Assembly: GCF_900182985.1 (NCBI RefSeq)
Contig: NZ_FXUY01000002.1
Coordinates: 917,001 to 981,000 of the forward strand
Length of the DNA: 64,000 nt
From: Pseudomonas helmanticensis
GTDB taxonomy: Bacteria; Pseudomonadota; Gammaproteobacteria; Pseudomonadales; Pseudomonadaceae
Direction: 5' to 3'
Part shown: positions 57,568 through 62,900 of the stretch, piece by piece
How positions within the stretch are numbered: position 1 is the stretch's first letter
How the letters are laid out: each line of letters begins with the position of its first letter
Made by a program: the position numbers and the translations under genes
Notes under the pieces: generated by a model
Database searches by the model: none
What the model was told of the DNA's origin: nothing
Seen by the model: the letters and a program-made list of their open reading frames with translations, nothing else

Positions 57568-57652
57568 CTGTAGGAGCTGCCGCAGGCTGCGATCTTTTGA
57601 TCTTGTTTTTAAGATCACCATCAAAAGATCGCAGCCTGCGGCAGCTCCTACA
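57568..57652. repeat. REP inverted pair (family C)
   Basis: ctgtaggagctgccgcaggc and complement facing inward, 15 bp after gap-1. Confidence 0.9.
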
Positions 57653-57711
57653 TTGGGTTCCATACCGGGCTTTACCGTTCTTTGACAATTCAGGGCTTGA
57701 CCATACGGGCA

Positions 57712-57730
57712 GATGATAAGCATTATCATT
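57712..57730. promoter_or_regulatory. Fur box before the ECF sigma gene
   Basis: gatgataagcattatcatt, a close match to the GATAATGATAATCATTATC Fur consensus with inverted symmetry, 25 bp before the GTG start. Iron would therefore repress the sigma/FecR pair. Confidence 0.85.
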
Positions 57731-57755: not shown

Positions 57756-58283
57756 GTGAGTCAATCGCGCTTCAACCACGTCTTCCTCACCCAGCGCATG
57801 TCCCTGCTGCGGACGCTGGAACGGATGGTCAACAATCACAGCACCGCTGAAGACCTGTTGCAGGAGACCTACCTGCGCGTGACGCGGGCGCTGAGCGAGC
57901 GGGCCATCGATCATCTTGAACCCTTTGTTTTCCAGACCGCGCGCAATCTGGCGCTGGACCATTTGCGTGCGCGCAAGATCCATTCGCGCACGATGGTCGA
58001 TGACGTGCCGCAGGACATCGTGCACAGCATCGCCGCCCCCGCCAGCAGCGCCGAAGACGCCGCCCACGCCGAACAAATGCTGGAGCGCCTGAACGTGAGC
58101 CTCAGTCAACTCAGCCCGCGTCAGCAACAAATTTTCATCCTCAGCCGCTTGCACGGGCACAGCTATCAGGAAATTGCCGACGAACTGAGCGTTTCCCTCA
58201 GTACCGTGCAGAAGGAATTGAAACTGATCATGACCATTTGCATCGGCGTCGCCGAACGACACGACAGCAGCGGCAAGCTGTAA
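57756..58283 (+). CDS. ECF sigma factor of heme-uptake signalling (FecI/HxuI type)
   Basis: 175 residues from GTG 57756. Region 2 is at about 15-80 (MVNNHSTAEDLLQETYLRVTRAL, FVFQTARNLALDHLRARKI), region 4 at about 108-160 (LSPRQQQIFILSRLHGHSYQEIADELSVSLSTVQKELK). This is the iron-starvation FecI subgroup. Together with FecR, a TonB receptor carrying a signalling domain and a heme oxygenase it forms a cell-surface signalling cassette like HxuIRA of P. aeruginosa. The last codons lie in a hairpin-forming repeat. Confidence 0.92.
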   Translation: MSQSRFNHVFLTQRMSLLRTLERMVNNHSTAEDLLQETYLRVTRALSERAIDHLEPFVFQTARNLALDHLRARKIHSRTMVDDVPQDIVHSIAAPASSAEDAAHAEQMLERLNVSLSQLSPRQQQIFILSRLHGHSYQEIADELSVSLSTVQKELKLIMTICIGVAERHDSSGKL

Positions 58284-58355
58284 GCTTCAAGCTCCAAGTA
58301 AAAACGAAAAGCAGTGCACGCATCTGGCTTGCAGCTTGCAGCTTGAAGCTTGAAA
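58273..58355. repeat. Hairpin repeat between sigma and fecR-like genes
   Basis: AAGCTTCAAGCT (58282-58293) and AGCTTGAAGCTT (58340-58351) pair perfectly, flanked by further gcttgcag units. The left arm includes the last three codons and stop of the sigma gene. Confidence 0.75.
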
Positions 58356-58384
58356 CTGCTTCGCCAGAAGCCCGAGGAAACACC

Positions 58385-59350
58385 GTGACGGACACCCACC
58401 GCTCGCCTTCGCCAGATTCGGCGCAGGACGCTGCAACCGCAATGGACCAGGCTTTGGACTGGCTCATCGTGCTCGGCAGCCCGGACGAGGAGCAGACCCG
58501 GCAGTTCCACGCATGGCTGGAGGCCGACCCGCTGAATGCCGAGGCGTTTGCCAAGGCGCAGGCGATCTGGGACGGCCCGCAAATCGCTCAATGTGCGCAA
58601 AGCCTTGCCGCAAAACCGGCGAAAGTCACCGTCCTCAAGCGTTTGCGTCCCCACTGGAAACCACTGGCCACTGCGGCGGTGCTGTTGCTCGGGTTGTTCA
58701 GTTTCAGCAATTTGCCGATGCGCATTCAGGCCGATCACCTGACCGTGGTCGGCGAGCGTCAGCGCCTGCAACTGGAGGACGGTTCGAAAGTCCTGCTCAA
58801 CACCAATTCGGCGTTCTCCAGCACCATCGACGATCAGCAGCGCGTGGCCCGGCTGTATCAGGGCGAGGCGTATTTCGAGATTGCCGGCGGGCGCAACCAG
58901 CCACTGGAAATCGACGCCGGCCCGGTCAAGGCCAGCGTCCGTGACACGGCGTTTGCCGTGCGTTATCTCGATGGCGTGGCGCAGGTCAACGTGCAGCGTG
59001 GCGATGTCGATCTGCGCGCGACCCATGACGATGCACGGGTGCGTTTGTCGGCCGGTGAGAGTATTCGCATCGGCCCCAACGGTTTCGACCGCCCGGCGAA
59101 ACTCGATGCCAACACCGATCTGGCCTGGGTCCAGGGCCGACTGGTGTTCGAGAACTGCCCGTTGAATCAGGTGCTGGCCGAACTGCGTCGTTACTATCCC
59201 GGCTGGATCATCAATACCAATGAACAGCTGGCCGACGTTAACGTCACTGGCAACTACCGGCTCGATCAGCCGCTCGACGTGGTTCGCTCCCTCGCCCACA
59301 TCACCTCGGCGCGCCTGCAGGAATTCCCGGCGCTGGTGATCCTGAACTAA
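58385..59350 (+). CDS. FecR-family anti-sigma/sigma regulator
   Basis: 321 residues from GTG 58385 (GAGGA 8 bp upstream). An N-terminal cytosolic domain (about 1-85, QALDWLIVLGSPDEEQTRQFHAWLEADPLNAEAFAKAQ, the FecR N-terminal DUF4880), one membrane helix (about 98-114, WKPLATAAVLLLGLFSF), then the periplasmic FecR domain (DGSKVLLNTNSAF, GEAYFEIAGG, VRDTAFAVRYLDGVAQVNVQRGDVDLR). It receives the heme signal from the receptor's N-terminal domain and controls the sigma factor. It is 101 bp downstream of the sigma gene. Confidence 0.92.
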   Translation: MTDTHRSPSPDSAQDAATAMDQALDWLIVLGSPDEEQTRQFHAWLEADPLNAEAFAKAQAIWDGPQIAQCAQSLAAKPAKVTVLKRLRPHWKPLATAAVLLLGLFSFSNLPMRIQADHLTVVGERQRLQLEDGSKVLLNTNSAFSSTIDDQQRVARLYQGEAYFEIAGGRNQPLEIDAGPVKASVRDTAFAVRYLDGVAQVNVQRGDVDLRATHDDARVRLSAGESIRIGPNGFDRPAKLDANTDLAWVQGRLVFENCPLNQVLAELRRYYPGWIINTNEQLADVNVTGNYRLDQPLDVVRSLAHITSARLQEFPALVILN

Positions 59351-59367
59351 ATGAGAATTATTTTTAC
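59349..59367. promoter_or_regulatory. Partial Fur box before the receptor gene
   Basis: aaatgagaattatttttac, with the GAGAATTATT half typical of a Fur box; the second half is weak. It overlaps the proposed ECF promoter, so iron could also block the receptor gene directly. Confidence 0.5.
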
Positions 59368-59396
59368 TCGATAGCGGAAGCCCGTTCGTCTCGTTA
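59361..59396 (+). promoter_or_regulatory. Proposed promoter for the heme-cluster ECF sigma (receptor gene)
   Basis: TTTTTAC (59361-59367), 16 bp, GTTCGTCTCGTTA (59384-59396). The same two boxes with the same 16-bp spacing occur before the heme oxygenase gene (62073-62108) and I find them at no other gene in the window. Confidence 0.65.
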
Positions 59397-59470
59397 TAGC
59401 CAATGCAATTGATTCGCATCACGATGCCAATCAGCAACTATAAAGATTCGTGCGACACGGAGCGCTATCG

Positions 59471-62026
59471 ATGTCCTCACGCCTTACCCGCCAGACCTCC
59501 CCTTCCCGCGTATTGTCGCTGCTGACCGCCGCCATTCTCATGGCCGGCACCGCACCGCTGATGGCTGCCACCGAGCAGCCGGGACGCAACATGGGTGATT
59601 ACTCGTTCGCCATCGGCCAGCAACCGCTGGTGTCGGCACTCAATGCCTTCACTGCTGTGACGGGTTGGCAGGTCGGCTTGCCGGCAGAGTTGGGGCAGAA
59701 CGTATCGTCGCCGGGCGTGCGCGGTTCGCTGCCACCGGAAAAAGCCCTCGAGCGTCTGTTGGTGGGGACCAACCTGAGCTTCCGCAAGCTGAGCAACAAC
59801 AACGTCGTGCTGGAAAAACGCAACGCCGGCGGTTCCCTCAATCTTGATCAGGTGACCATCAGCGCCACGCGTCAGGAACAGTCGGTGAGCAGCGTGCCGG
59901 CCACCGTCAGCGTGCAGACCCGCGAGGATCTGGATCGCAACAACGTCAACTCGATCAAGGATCTGGTGCGTTACGAGCCGGGCGTTTCGGTGGGCGGTGC
60001 CGGTCAACGTGCCGGCATCACTGGCTACAACATCCGTGGTATTGACGGTGACCGCGTCCTGACCCAAGTCGACGGCGTGCAAGTGCCAGACAGTTTCTTC
60101 AACGGTCCGTACGCGCAGACCAACCGCAATTACGTCGACCCGGAAATCGTCAAACGCGTCGAAATTCTCCGTGGCCCGGCCTCAGTGCTGTACGGCAGCA
60201 ATGCGATTGGCGGCGCCGTCAGCTACTACACCCTCGATCCGGACGACATCATCAAGCCTGGCCAGGACGTCGGCGCACGGCTGAAAACCGGTTACAGCTC
60301 GGCCGATGACAGCTGGCTGACCTCCGGCACCGTTGCTGGCCGCACTGGCGACTTCGACGGTTTGCTGCACCTGAGCCAGCGCAACGGTCATGAAACCGAA
60401 TCCTACGGCGAAACCGGTGGCACCGGCCTGAACCGCACCGAGGCCAATCCGCAAGACGTGCGCACCACCAACGTGCTGGCCAAACTCGGCTGGAACTACG
60501 CTGACGACGCGCGCTTCGGCCTCACCTACGAACACTACAAAGACGATCGCGACACCAATCAGTTGAGCGCCGTCGGTGGCCCGTTCAACGCTGGACGCGG
60601 GTTTGGTTTCTACAAGGCGCGCACCGGCAACGACACCGTTACCCGCGAGCGTTTTGGTCTGGAACACCGCTTCGCACTGGACACCGCGTTGGCCGACAAC
60701 ATCAAGTGGTCGCTCAACTACCAGATCGCCAAGACCGACCAAACCACCCAGGAAATCTACGCGCCGTCGCGCACCGTGTTGCGCAACCGCGACACCAATT
60801 ACAAGGATCGCCAGTGGGTATTCGATGCGCAGGCTGACAAGTCGTTTGCCATCGCCGACACCGACCACACCATCACCTACGGCACGACCATCAAGCAGGA
60901 CAAAGTCACCGGACTGCGCACCGGCAACGGCACCTGCCTGACCGTCAGCGGCGCCTGCCGGGTGATCGGTGCGCCAAGCGCCGCCGACACCCTGAAACCG
61001 GCCAGCGACTTCCCGGATCCGACCATCAACAGCTACAGCCTGTTCGCGCAGGATCAGATCAGCTGGGGTAACTGGACGTTCCTGCCGGGCGCACGTTACG
61101 ACTACACCCAACTCAAGCCGCACATCACCGATGAGTTCCTCGCCACTGCCGACCAGAGCGGCAACGGTCAAGTCAGCGACAAGGAAAAAACCTGGCATCG
61201 TCTGTCGCCGAAGTTCGGCACGACCTACAGCTTCAACGATAACTACACCTGGTACGGTCAGTACGCCGAAGGCTTCCGCACGCCGACCGCCAAGGCCTTG
61301 TACGGTCGCTTTGAAAACCTCGCGGGCGGCTACCAGGTCGCGCCGAACCCGGATCTGGAACCGGAAAAAAGCAAAAGCTATGAAACCGGCCTGCGTGGCC
61401 AATTTGAAGCGGGCACCTTCGACGTTGCGGTGTTCTACAACAAGTACCGTGATTTCATCGATGAAAACGCGATCACTCCGGGCTACTCCGAGACCACGTT
61501 CCAGAGCAACAACATCAAACACGCCACCATCAAAGGCGTGGAGCTTAAAGGTCGCCTGAACCTCGATACCTTCGGCGCACCGACCGGCCTCTACACCCAA
61601 GGCTCGATGGCGTATCTGTACGGCCGCAATGACGACAGCGGTCAGCCGCTGAACAGCGTCAATCCGCTGACCGGCGTGTTCGGTCTCGGTTATGACCAGG
61701 ATAAATACGGTGCGTTGCTGAGCTGGACGCTGGTCAAGCGCAAGGATCGTGTCGACAGCACCATGTTCAAGACACCGGACGGCACCAGCACCCAGTTCAA
61801 GACCCCGGGTTATGGCGTGCTCGACCTGGCCGGCTTCTACAAAGTCACCGACGATGTGACCGTCAACGCCGGTCTCTACAACCTGACCGACAAGAAATAC
61901 TGGCAGTGGGATGACGTGCGCGGTTACGACAGCGTCGGCGAAGCCTCGGTCACGCAGCCGGCCAACCTTGATCGCCTGACCCAGCCGGGCCGCAACTTCG
62001 CGATCAATCTGGTCTGGGACATCTGA
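59471..62026 (+). CDS. TonB-dependent heme receptor with N-terminal signalling domain
   Basis: 851 residues from ATG 59471 (GGAG 8 bp upstream). Signal peptide of about 38 residues ending near APLMAA; STN signalling domain (about 45-115, IGQQPLVSALNAFTAVTGWQVGLPAELG), TonB box-plug (about 125-250, LDQVTISATRQEQSVSSVPAT, VLRGPASVLYGSNAIGGAVSYYT), then a 22-strand barrel ending GRNFAINLVWDI. The heme-receptor motif FRTPTAKALYGRFENL...PNPDLEPEKS (FRAP/PNPNL type) is present. The STN passes the signal to FecR. Confidence 0.93.
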   Translation: MSSRLTRQTSPSRVLSLLTAAILMAGTAPLMAATEQPGRNMGDYSFAIGQQPLVSALNAFTAVTGWQVGLPAELGQNVSSPGVRGSLPPEKALERLLVGTNLSFRKLSNNNVVLEKRNAGGSLNLDQVTISATRQEQSVSSVPATVSVQTREDLDRNNVNSIKDLVRYEPGVSVGGAGQRAGITGYNIRGIDGDRVLTQVDGVQVPDSFFNGPYAQTNRNYVDPEIVKRVEILRGPASVLYGSNAIGGAVSYYTLDPDDIIKPGQDVGARLKTGYSSADDSWLTSGTVAGRTGDFDGLLHLSQRNGHETESYGETGGTGLNRTEANPQDVRTTNVLAKLGWNYADDARFGLTYEHYKDDRDTNQLSAVGGPFNAGRGFGFYKARTGNDTVTRERFGLEHRFALDTALADNIKWSLNYQIAKTDQTTQEIYAPSRTVLRNRDTNYKDRQWVFDAQADKSFAIADTDHTITYGTTIKQDKVTGLRTGNGTCLTVSGACRVIGAPSAADTLKPASDFPDPTINSYSLFAQDQISWGNWTFLPGARYDYTQLKPHITDEFLATADQSGNGQVSDKEKTWHRLSPKFGTTYSFNDNYTWYGQYAEGFRTPTAKALYGRFENLAGGYQVAPNPDLEPEKSKSYETGLRGQFEAGTFDVAVFYNKYRDFIDENAITPGYSETTFQSNNIKHATIKGVELKGRLNLDTFGAPTGLYTQGSMAYLYGRNDDSGQPLNSVNPLTGVFGLGYDQDKYGALLSWTLVKRKDRVDSTMFKTPDGTSTQFKTPGYGVLDLAGFYKVTDDVTVNAGLYNLTDKKYWQWDDVRGYDSVGEASVTQPANLDRLTQPGRNFAINLVWDI

Positions 62027-62035
62027 TCCGGCCGA

Positions 62036-62077
62036 CCTCACGGCGCGTGTCCACGCACCGCCCCGTGAGGTTTTTTT
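62036..62077 (+). terminator. Rho-independent terminator of the receptor gene
   Basis: CCTCACGG ... CCGTGAGG arms with a GC-rich loop and T7. The last T residues are also the first bases of the TTTTTAC promoter box of the next gene. Confidence 0.85.
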
Positions 62078-62108
62078 ACGCTCGCGCGCTTGCTGGTTCG
62101 TCTCGTTA
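62073..62108 (+). promoter_or_regulatory. Proposed promoter for the heme-cluster ECF sigma (heme oxygenase gene)
   Basis: TTTTTAC (62073-62079), 16 bp, GTTCGTCTCGTTA (62096-62108), the second copy of the element before the receptor gene. It overlaps the terminator's T-run. Confidence 0.65.
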
Positions 62109-62138
62109 GCAAGCGCCTCAATTTCTCAAGGATTTGTC

Positions 62139-62747
62139 ATGACCGCTCAAGACACCGAACAACGCCCTGCCCTGCGTTCGCAACGCTTGAACCAGATCAC
62201 CAACGAGCCGCACACCAAGCTCGATGCGCTGGTCAAGGCGCATGCGCCGTTCGAGACCCGCGCCAACTTCGCCCGTTTCGTGGTCGCGCAGTACCTGTTC
62301 CAGTCAGAACTGGTCGACCTGTACAACGATGCCGAACTGACCGCGATCGTGCCTGACCTGCCCGCGCGTTGCCGCGCCGAAGCGGCCAGGGCTGACCTCG
62401 CGGATCTCGACACCGAAGTCCCTGCACCGGTCGCCGGCGCGGTGAAAAATCCGAGCAAGGCCCGTGCACTGGGCTGGATCTTCGTGTCTGAAGGCTCGAA
62501 GCTCGGCGCTGCGTTCCTGATCAAACGCGCGGTGGCGCTGGAGCTGAGCGAAACCTTCGGTGCCCGTCACCTCGGTGAGCCAGAAGGTGGCCGTGCCGAA
62601 GGCTGGAAGAGTTTCGTGCGTACCCTCGATTCGCTGCAGTTCACTGCCGAGGAAGAAGCCGAAGTCGAGCAAGGCGCGATCGATGCGTTCAACCGCTTCA
62701 CCGTGTTGCTGGAACAGGCCTACGCCACCGAAGCCGAACTCGCCTGA
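62139..62747 (+). CDS. hemO: Biliverdin-producing heme oxygenase (PigA/HemO type)
   Basis: 202 residues. Proximal heme-ligand region NEPHTKLDALVKAHAPFETR with the His, then FARFVVAQYLFQSELVDLYND and the distal helix GWIFVSEGSKLGAAFLIKRAVAL with the GSxxGA kink. This is the bacterial PigA/HemO group that opens heme to biliverdin, iron and CO. It takes heme imported by the receptor just upstream. ATG 62139 has CAAGGATTT upstream; a terminator and an ECF-type promoter separate it from the receptor gene. Confidence 0.92.
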   Translation: MTAQDTEQRPALRSQRLNQITNEPHTKLDALVKAHAPFETRANFARFVVAQYLFQSELVDLYNDAELTAIVPDLPARCRAEAARADLADLDTEVPAPVAGAVKNPSKARALGWIFVSEGSKLGAAFLIKRAVALELSETFGARHLGEPEGGRAEGWKSFVRTLDSLQFTAEEEAEVEQGAIDAFNRFTVLLEQAYATEAELA

Positions 62748-62762
62748 GTCACAAAAATCCCC

Positions 62763-62842
62763 CTGTAGGAGCTGCCGCAGGCTGCGATCTTTTGATCTTG
62801 AAAACAACCTCAAAAGATCGCAGCCTGCGGCAGCTCCTACAG
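62763..62842. repeat. REP inverted pair (family C)
   Basis: ctgtaggagctgccgcaggc and complement facing inward, 15 bp after the heme oxygenase gene. Confidence 0.92.
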
Positions 62843-62900
62843 GGGGAGCGCGTAAGTCTGTAAGATCTCCATTCCGCTTCAGAAGCAATCCGCTGAGCCC

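Follow-up and report, generated by a model that had tools for sequence, protein, structure and literature searches.

Which factor reads the same pair of short sequence blocks found in front of two neighbouring genes of a heme-uptake cluster? We have studied this question in Pseudomonas helmanticensis, assembly GCF_900182985.1, contig NZ_FXUY01000002.1, positions 917,001–981,000 of the forward strand. This whole stretch of 64,000 nt is called the window in what follows. The genes of the cluster are found in the order sigma factor, FecR-like gene, receptor and heme oxygenase (hemO), each with its expected domains; their coordinates are given in Table 1, together with those of the other features discussed. 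The position and the conservation of the two copies make it very probable that they are −35/−10 promoters of the FecI-like sigma factor encoded next to them, which would use them to activate the receptor and the heme oxygenase jointly.

Table 1. Genes, predicted promoter elements and other features of the heme-uptake cluster (positions in the window)
Feature	Position	Strand	Details
Fur-box-like site upstream of the sigma gene	57709–57727		15/19 of consensus
FecI-like ECF sigma factor gene	57756–58283	+	Pfam Sigma70_r2, Sigma70_r4_2; NCBIfam sigma70-ECF
FecR-like anti-sigma gene	58385–59350	+	Pfam DUF4880, FecR, FecR_C
Fur-like match overlapping the receptor −35	59347–59365		12/19
TTTAC, predicted receptor −35	59363–59367	+	TTTTTAC at 59361–59367; with CGTY kept in 127/128 loci
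GTTCGTCTCGTTA, predicted receptor −10	59384–59396	+	core CGTC 59387–59390, GT 59393–59394
Conserved AATGCAATTGATTCGCATC just downstream of the receptor promoter	59402–59420		conserved columns
TonB-dependent heme receptor, PhuR-like with an extra STN signalling domain	59471–62026	+	Pfam STN, Plug, barrel
Terminator-like stem and T-run of the receptor	62036–62077	+	stem ends at 62070, T-run 62071–62077
TTTAC, predicted hemO −35	62075–62079	+	TTTTTAC at 62073–62079; with CGTY kept in 120/121 loci
GTTCGTCTCGTTA, predicted hemO −10	62096–62108	+	core CGTC 62099–62102, GT 62105–62106
Heme oxygenase, hemO	62139–62747	+	Pfam Heme_oxygenase

The gene products have the features of FecI-type signalling. 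The sigma factor has regions 2 and 4 (Pfam, NCBIfam), it is adjoined by a FecR-like anti-sigma gene (Pfam) and the receptor contains an STN domain in residues 67–116 (Pfam STN, 32.9 bits with a cut-off of 28.4). Among the best 80 of 493 matches, the closest sigma factors are 96–97% identical: they belong to P. fluorescens, P. koreensis and other Pseudomonas strains. Plug and barrel of the receptor are like those of PhuR over their full length, since residues 119–851 match the structure 8the with 1161 bits. The product of hemO has pa-HO (1sk7) as its closest solved relative. By eye we have also detected REP-like inverted repeats which flank the cluster (57571–57654 and 62763–62843) and a AAGCTTCAAGCT/AGCTTGAAGCTT repeat in the gap between sigma and fecR, at 58284–58375.

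We will start with the genome of this species. A preliminary description of the window had reported the motif TTTTTAC-N16-GTTCGTCTCGTTA at 59361–59396 and 62073–62108, with the same 16-bp spacing, and both copies are indeed exact. It is never matched when the window is shuffled 100 times by dinucleotides, and across the 6.53 Mb genome exact GTTCGTCTCGTTA is limited to these two places. With the wider form TTTACN{18,20}CGTYYMGTY we again obtained the same two places only. Its reversed control has four matches, so that counting genomic matches is no evidence by itself: the evidence for the putative motif is its position and its conservation. A looser pattern, TTTACKN{14,15}RTWCGTY, was tried in search of a third target. 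It has four matches (five in the reversed control); the two new ones lie within predicted ORFs and were discarded. Neither the wider nor the looser scan of this genome gave a third target. We also examined 11 of its 13 matches to the STN domain, leaving out two weak ones: the exact form is carried by none of the ten other STN-domain genes, the receptor of the window being its sole carrier among the 11.

For the comparison with other species we have used a set of loci formed by the window, 80 loci which correspond to the best 80 of the 493 matches, and 53 loci from genomes of the family. The sigma identity goes down to 47% in this set, in which a few genomes are counted twice, as they have the sigma and the receptor on different contigs. 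We scanned 250 bases upstream of each gene; enough upstream sequence was available in 128 loci with a receptor and in 121 with hemO. The pattern TTTAC-N17-20-CGTY is present upstream of 127 of the 128 receptors and 120 of the 121 hemO genes in these sigma-bearing loci of the family, which are relatives, so that the counts are not independent. Shuffled upstream regions contain it in 0.3–0.7% of the cases over all the genes scanned, and in 0.6–0.7% for those of receptor and hemO. In the family loci it is found neither before the sigma gene (0/129) nor before fecR (0/129). The distribution described from the window, with the motif before both effector genes and absent before sigma and fecR, holds in these loci of the family. 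It is also the one that corresponds to a FecI-type sigma, with a promoter motif before the receptor and none before the sigma itself (127/128 vs 0/129).

The preliminary description had named the loss of the motif in orthologous loci which keep the sigma gene as a refutation of its proposal; apart from one hemO gene, such a loss is not found. In the receptor that was missed (L157, genome G092) the gene is broken in the middle and our script was misled: by inspection the motif is present at L157:2575. In the other case (L123, genome G158) both sigma and hemO are present, the motif is found only before the receptor and the hemO copy has been lost. This last locus also has no FecR between sigma and receptor. 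Some other loci (L126–L128, L138 and L148) keep sigma, FecR, the receptor and its promoter, with no close hemO nearby. A peculiar genome is G124, which contains two relatives of the sigma (L132 and L133, with 54% and 47% identity), each with a different receptor; both loci have sites of the TTTAC/CGT form. A search for orthologs beyond the family gave a match at E 1e-18 in 2 of 368 other genomes of the class, both with 34–35% identity: one of these loci has no match to the pattern, and in the other one the match and the sigma lie on opposite strands.

The sequence of the motif is shorter and more variable than it had been described. The letters of the description are found unchanged in 28 of 127 receptor sites and in 42 of 120 hemO sites. 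What is strictly kept is TTTAC and CGT(C/T): TTTAC and CGT are separated by 19 bases in 125 of the 127 receptor sites and in 98 of the 120 hemO sites, and by 18 in the rest. The spacers themselves are free, with 94 distinct sequences in receptor sites and 95 in hemO sites. Because the exact letters vary while cores and spacing hold, we predict a minimal promoter TTTAC-N18/19-CGT(C/T), which usually continues as CGTCTCGTYA. From its position in the window we infer that transcription would start near 59397–59401 for the receptor and near 62109–62113 for hemO.

The motif also goes together with the sigma and with the STN domain. A sigma gene is found in 49 of 198 genomes of the family (in G040 it is in two pieces). 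STN-bearing receptors are found in 47 genomes, all of them (47/47) among these 49; the sigma genomes which lack one are G092, with its broken receptor, and G124, with its different receptor. Genes for hemO with at least 64% identity are found in 40 genomes, again all of them (40/40) among the 49, and nine sigma genomes are without one. Proximity is not required: in G166 and G140 the receptor–hemO pair is on another large contig than the sigma–fecR pair, the first 5 kb or so downstream of fecR contain no receptor, and the motif is kept by both targets. We have left out G170 and G174 from these unlinked cases: their linkage cannot be judged, because the contig ends beside the sigma.

Receptors without STN domain behave differently. 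From 40 such matches we fetched 20, and the motif is absent before all of them. In 17 of these 20 there is instead a Fur-like match of at least 12/19, found in 2% of shuffled pieces; for the score we have used a 19-letter consensus which we take to be that of Fur. An example is L216 (G126:C1:5590300-5592200), an STN-less receptor about 70% identical to that of the window, in a genome without the sigma: it has a Fur-like site (14/19) and no motif. The heme-oxygenase locus of G126 does not have the motif either. The conservation in the family, the unlinked genes of G166 and G140 and the absence in 20 of 20 STN-less receptors all support the proposal of the preliminary description, that the motif would be a −35/−10 pair specific for this sigma. 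The two copies might also be due to chance, or to the common ancestry of a duplicated upstream region, and have no function. The reversed controls match as often in the genome of the species (4 vs 2 and 5 vs 4), and the T-run at hemO arises from a terminator; but spacers and flanks differ between the two sites while the cores are fixed in 127 and 120 loci, and 20 of 20 STN-less receptors have lost the motif. We give this explanation a practically negligible probability.

Fur-like sequences are found in different parts of the cluster. They are clearest upstream of the sigma gene: in 125 unique orthologous regions the mean match is 14.3/19 (9.7 when shuffled), and 81% of them reach at least 14/19, a value found in 0.1% of the shuffles. 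Of 103 unique contexts of the receptor promoter, 65% have a match of at least 12/19 over the −35 (3% when shuffled). The AATGCAATTGATTCGCATC element which follows this promoter has a mean best match of 10.95/19, compared with 9.57 in shuffled sequences, and it reaches 13 in none of the 103 cases; it may be read as Fur-like, with a modest score. At the orthologous hemO promoters there is no Fur-like match above chance, neither over the −35 nor downstream. In the window we found a striking inverted repeat around the hemO −10, which we have discarded: across orthologs its pairing is not above what is expected from the columns.

It could be asked if an ordinary regulator, such as Fur or a heme-responsive protein, binds to the shared blocks, which would then not be contacts of a sigma factor. 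The overlap of the Fur-like match with the receptor −35 in close lineages would agree with it, as would the inverted repeat at hemO in the window. However, the more distant lineages have the Fur-like sequence at the receptor −35 replaced and TTTAC stays, neither the Fur match nor the pairing at hemO rises above expectation, and the arrangement as two blocks 18–19 bases apart, the spacer being free, agrees with a promoter. A binding site of this kind appears very unlikely to us, and we keep the interpretation of the blocks as putative sigma promoters.

The hemO promoter has an additional peculiarity in the window: the T-run of the receptor terminator and the predicted −35 are the same bases (region 62036–62079). 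Unique close orthologs have a terminator-like stem which ends at the T-run with the hemO −35 in 77/78 cases, more distant ones in 13/39. The fusion of terminator and promoter is thus particular to one lineage, and the promoter does not need it. Terminator-like stems at receptor sites are found in 10 of 108 cases.

A similar core is found in a different group of loci. In a second clade of hemO genes (L183–L193, with 56–62% identity), 9 of 11 have TTTAC-N19-CGTC some 80 bases before the gene. Since these genes have the same core, it appears that the TTTAC/CGTC sequence is not private to the sigma of the window: two heme sigma factors would share it. The genes of the second clade mostly lie some 10 kb downstream of a HasI-like sigma. 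Nine of the 11 loci contain a FecR-like gene and a receptor, and eight of these nine have the core before hemO; four loci of the clade also carry it just before the fecR-like gene. In the single locus that we examined for it, L186, HasA is present by Pfam. We have also scanned whole 14 loci around other FecI-like sigmas. They gave two matches, one within the receptor ORF (L208) and the other at the edge of the locus, pointing outward (L206).

A tree of 45 sigmas separates the window-type and HasI-type sequences into two clades, each with support 100/99, which join weakly (83/71) with long branches: the sigma of the window does not group with the sigmas of Has loci. The −35 contains TTTAC at both promoters, as does the −35 reported for HasI, and the site that HasI has before the anti-sigma gene, hasS, is not found before fecR (0/129). 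The sites also differ in the bases which follow the core. GT is found two bases after CGTC in 241 of 247 window-type sites and in 1 of 14 HasI-type sites of the family.

The common core raises the question of whether the promoters of the window are mainly read by another ECF sigma, for example of HasI type, the adjacent sigma being incidental. The −35 of HasI in Serratia marcescens also contains TTTAC (PMC9249621), and HasI-type loci have the core in 9 of 11 hemO genes and at the four sites before the fecR-like gene. Against it we have the difference in GT, the STN receptor which accompanies this sigma in all 47 genomes and the report that ecf7 of P. syringae controls the receptor–hemO pair (PMC3597554). 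We judge such a reading extremely unlikely and attribute the two promoters to the adjacent sigma as their probable reader.

A tentative idea, which we find rather doubtful, is that HasI-type and window-type sigmas which coexist in some Pseudomonas genomes both read the same cores and that their regulons might be kept apart by the bases outside, above all GT. If this were true, sigmas which presumably lack region 1.2 would discriminate promoters by the bases that follow the −10. For two paralogous sigmas with a common core promoter, these loci are a natural test case of how cross-talk would be prevented.

From the sequences we infer a switch in which the binding of Fur and of sigma and the role of heme as signal are all putative. 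Iron shortage would lift Fur from the sigma–fecR genes. Heme on the STN-bearing receptor would signal through FecR and free the sigma, which would then read TTTAC-N18/19-CGT(C/T) before the receptor and hemO, and would not act before its own gene or fecR. As there is Fur-like sequence around the receptor promoter and none above chance at hemO, the latter would depend on the sigma alone. Our results suggest that the regulon is just the receptor and the heme oxygenase. They tie the signalling domain of the receptor to the promoter in front of it, and they provide a sharp definition, valid for the whole family, of the predicted promoter of a heme-responsive sigma whose targets are already known in P. 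syringae.

This is a known kind of iron-uptake switch, of which the cluster is a clear example. The family-wide definition, the core common with HasI-type loci and the difference in GT are possibly new, unless already printed. No printed match to the whole motif was found in the accessible parts of the literature searched, and the ChIP-seq study of P. syringae may print it; the preliminary description knew of no matching consensus. For the −35 there is a published partial match, TTTACGGGTTT, the −35 of HasI in Serratia marcescens reported with mutagenesis in the available text of PMC9249621. HasI is also a FecI-type sigma signalled by heme; unlike the sigma of the window, it acts on the anti-sigma gene hasS (PMC9249621).

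The most similar system is that of ecf7 (PSPTO_1286) in P. syringae. According to the available text of PMC3597554, the genes have the same order of hemO, FecA-like receptor, FecR and sigma; ecf7 is an iron-starvation sigma induced in low iron, which controls hemO and the receptor, as found by ChIP-seq for PSPTO_1286, and hemO rises more than 150-fold in low iron. In that part of the study we found no promoter motif for ecf7. We consider it the counterpart of the sigma of the window by gene order and description, not by sequence comparison. In strain Pf-5, PFL_4625 and PFL_4628 are reported to rise in low iron (PMC3377617). HxuI of P. aeruginosa is also the FecI-type sigma of a heme receptor and raises its own receptor gene, hxuA. 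However, its motif, predicted with MEME, does not resemble TTTAC-N19-CGTC, and no hemO is described with it in the available text (PMC8768829). PhuR and pa-HO of P. aeruginosa, the closest solved relatives of the receptor and the oxygenase, complete the comparison: the match with PhuR begins at residue 119, and the receptor of the window differs from it by the extra STN domain.
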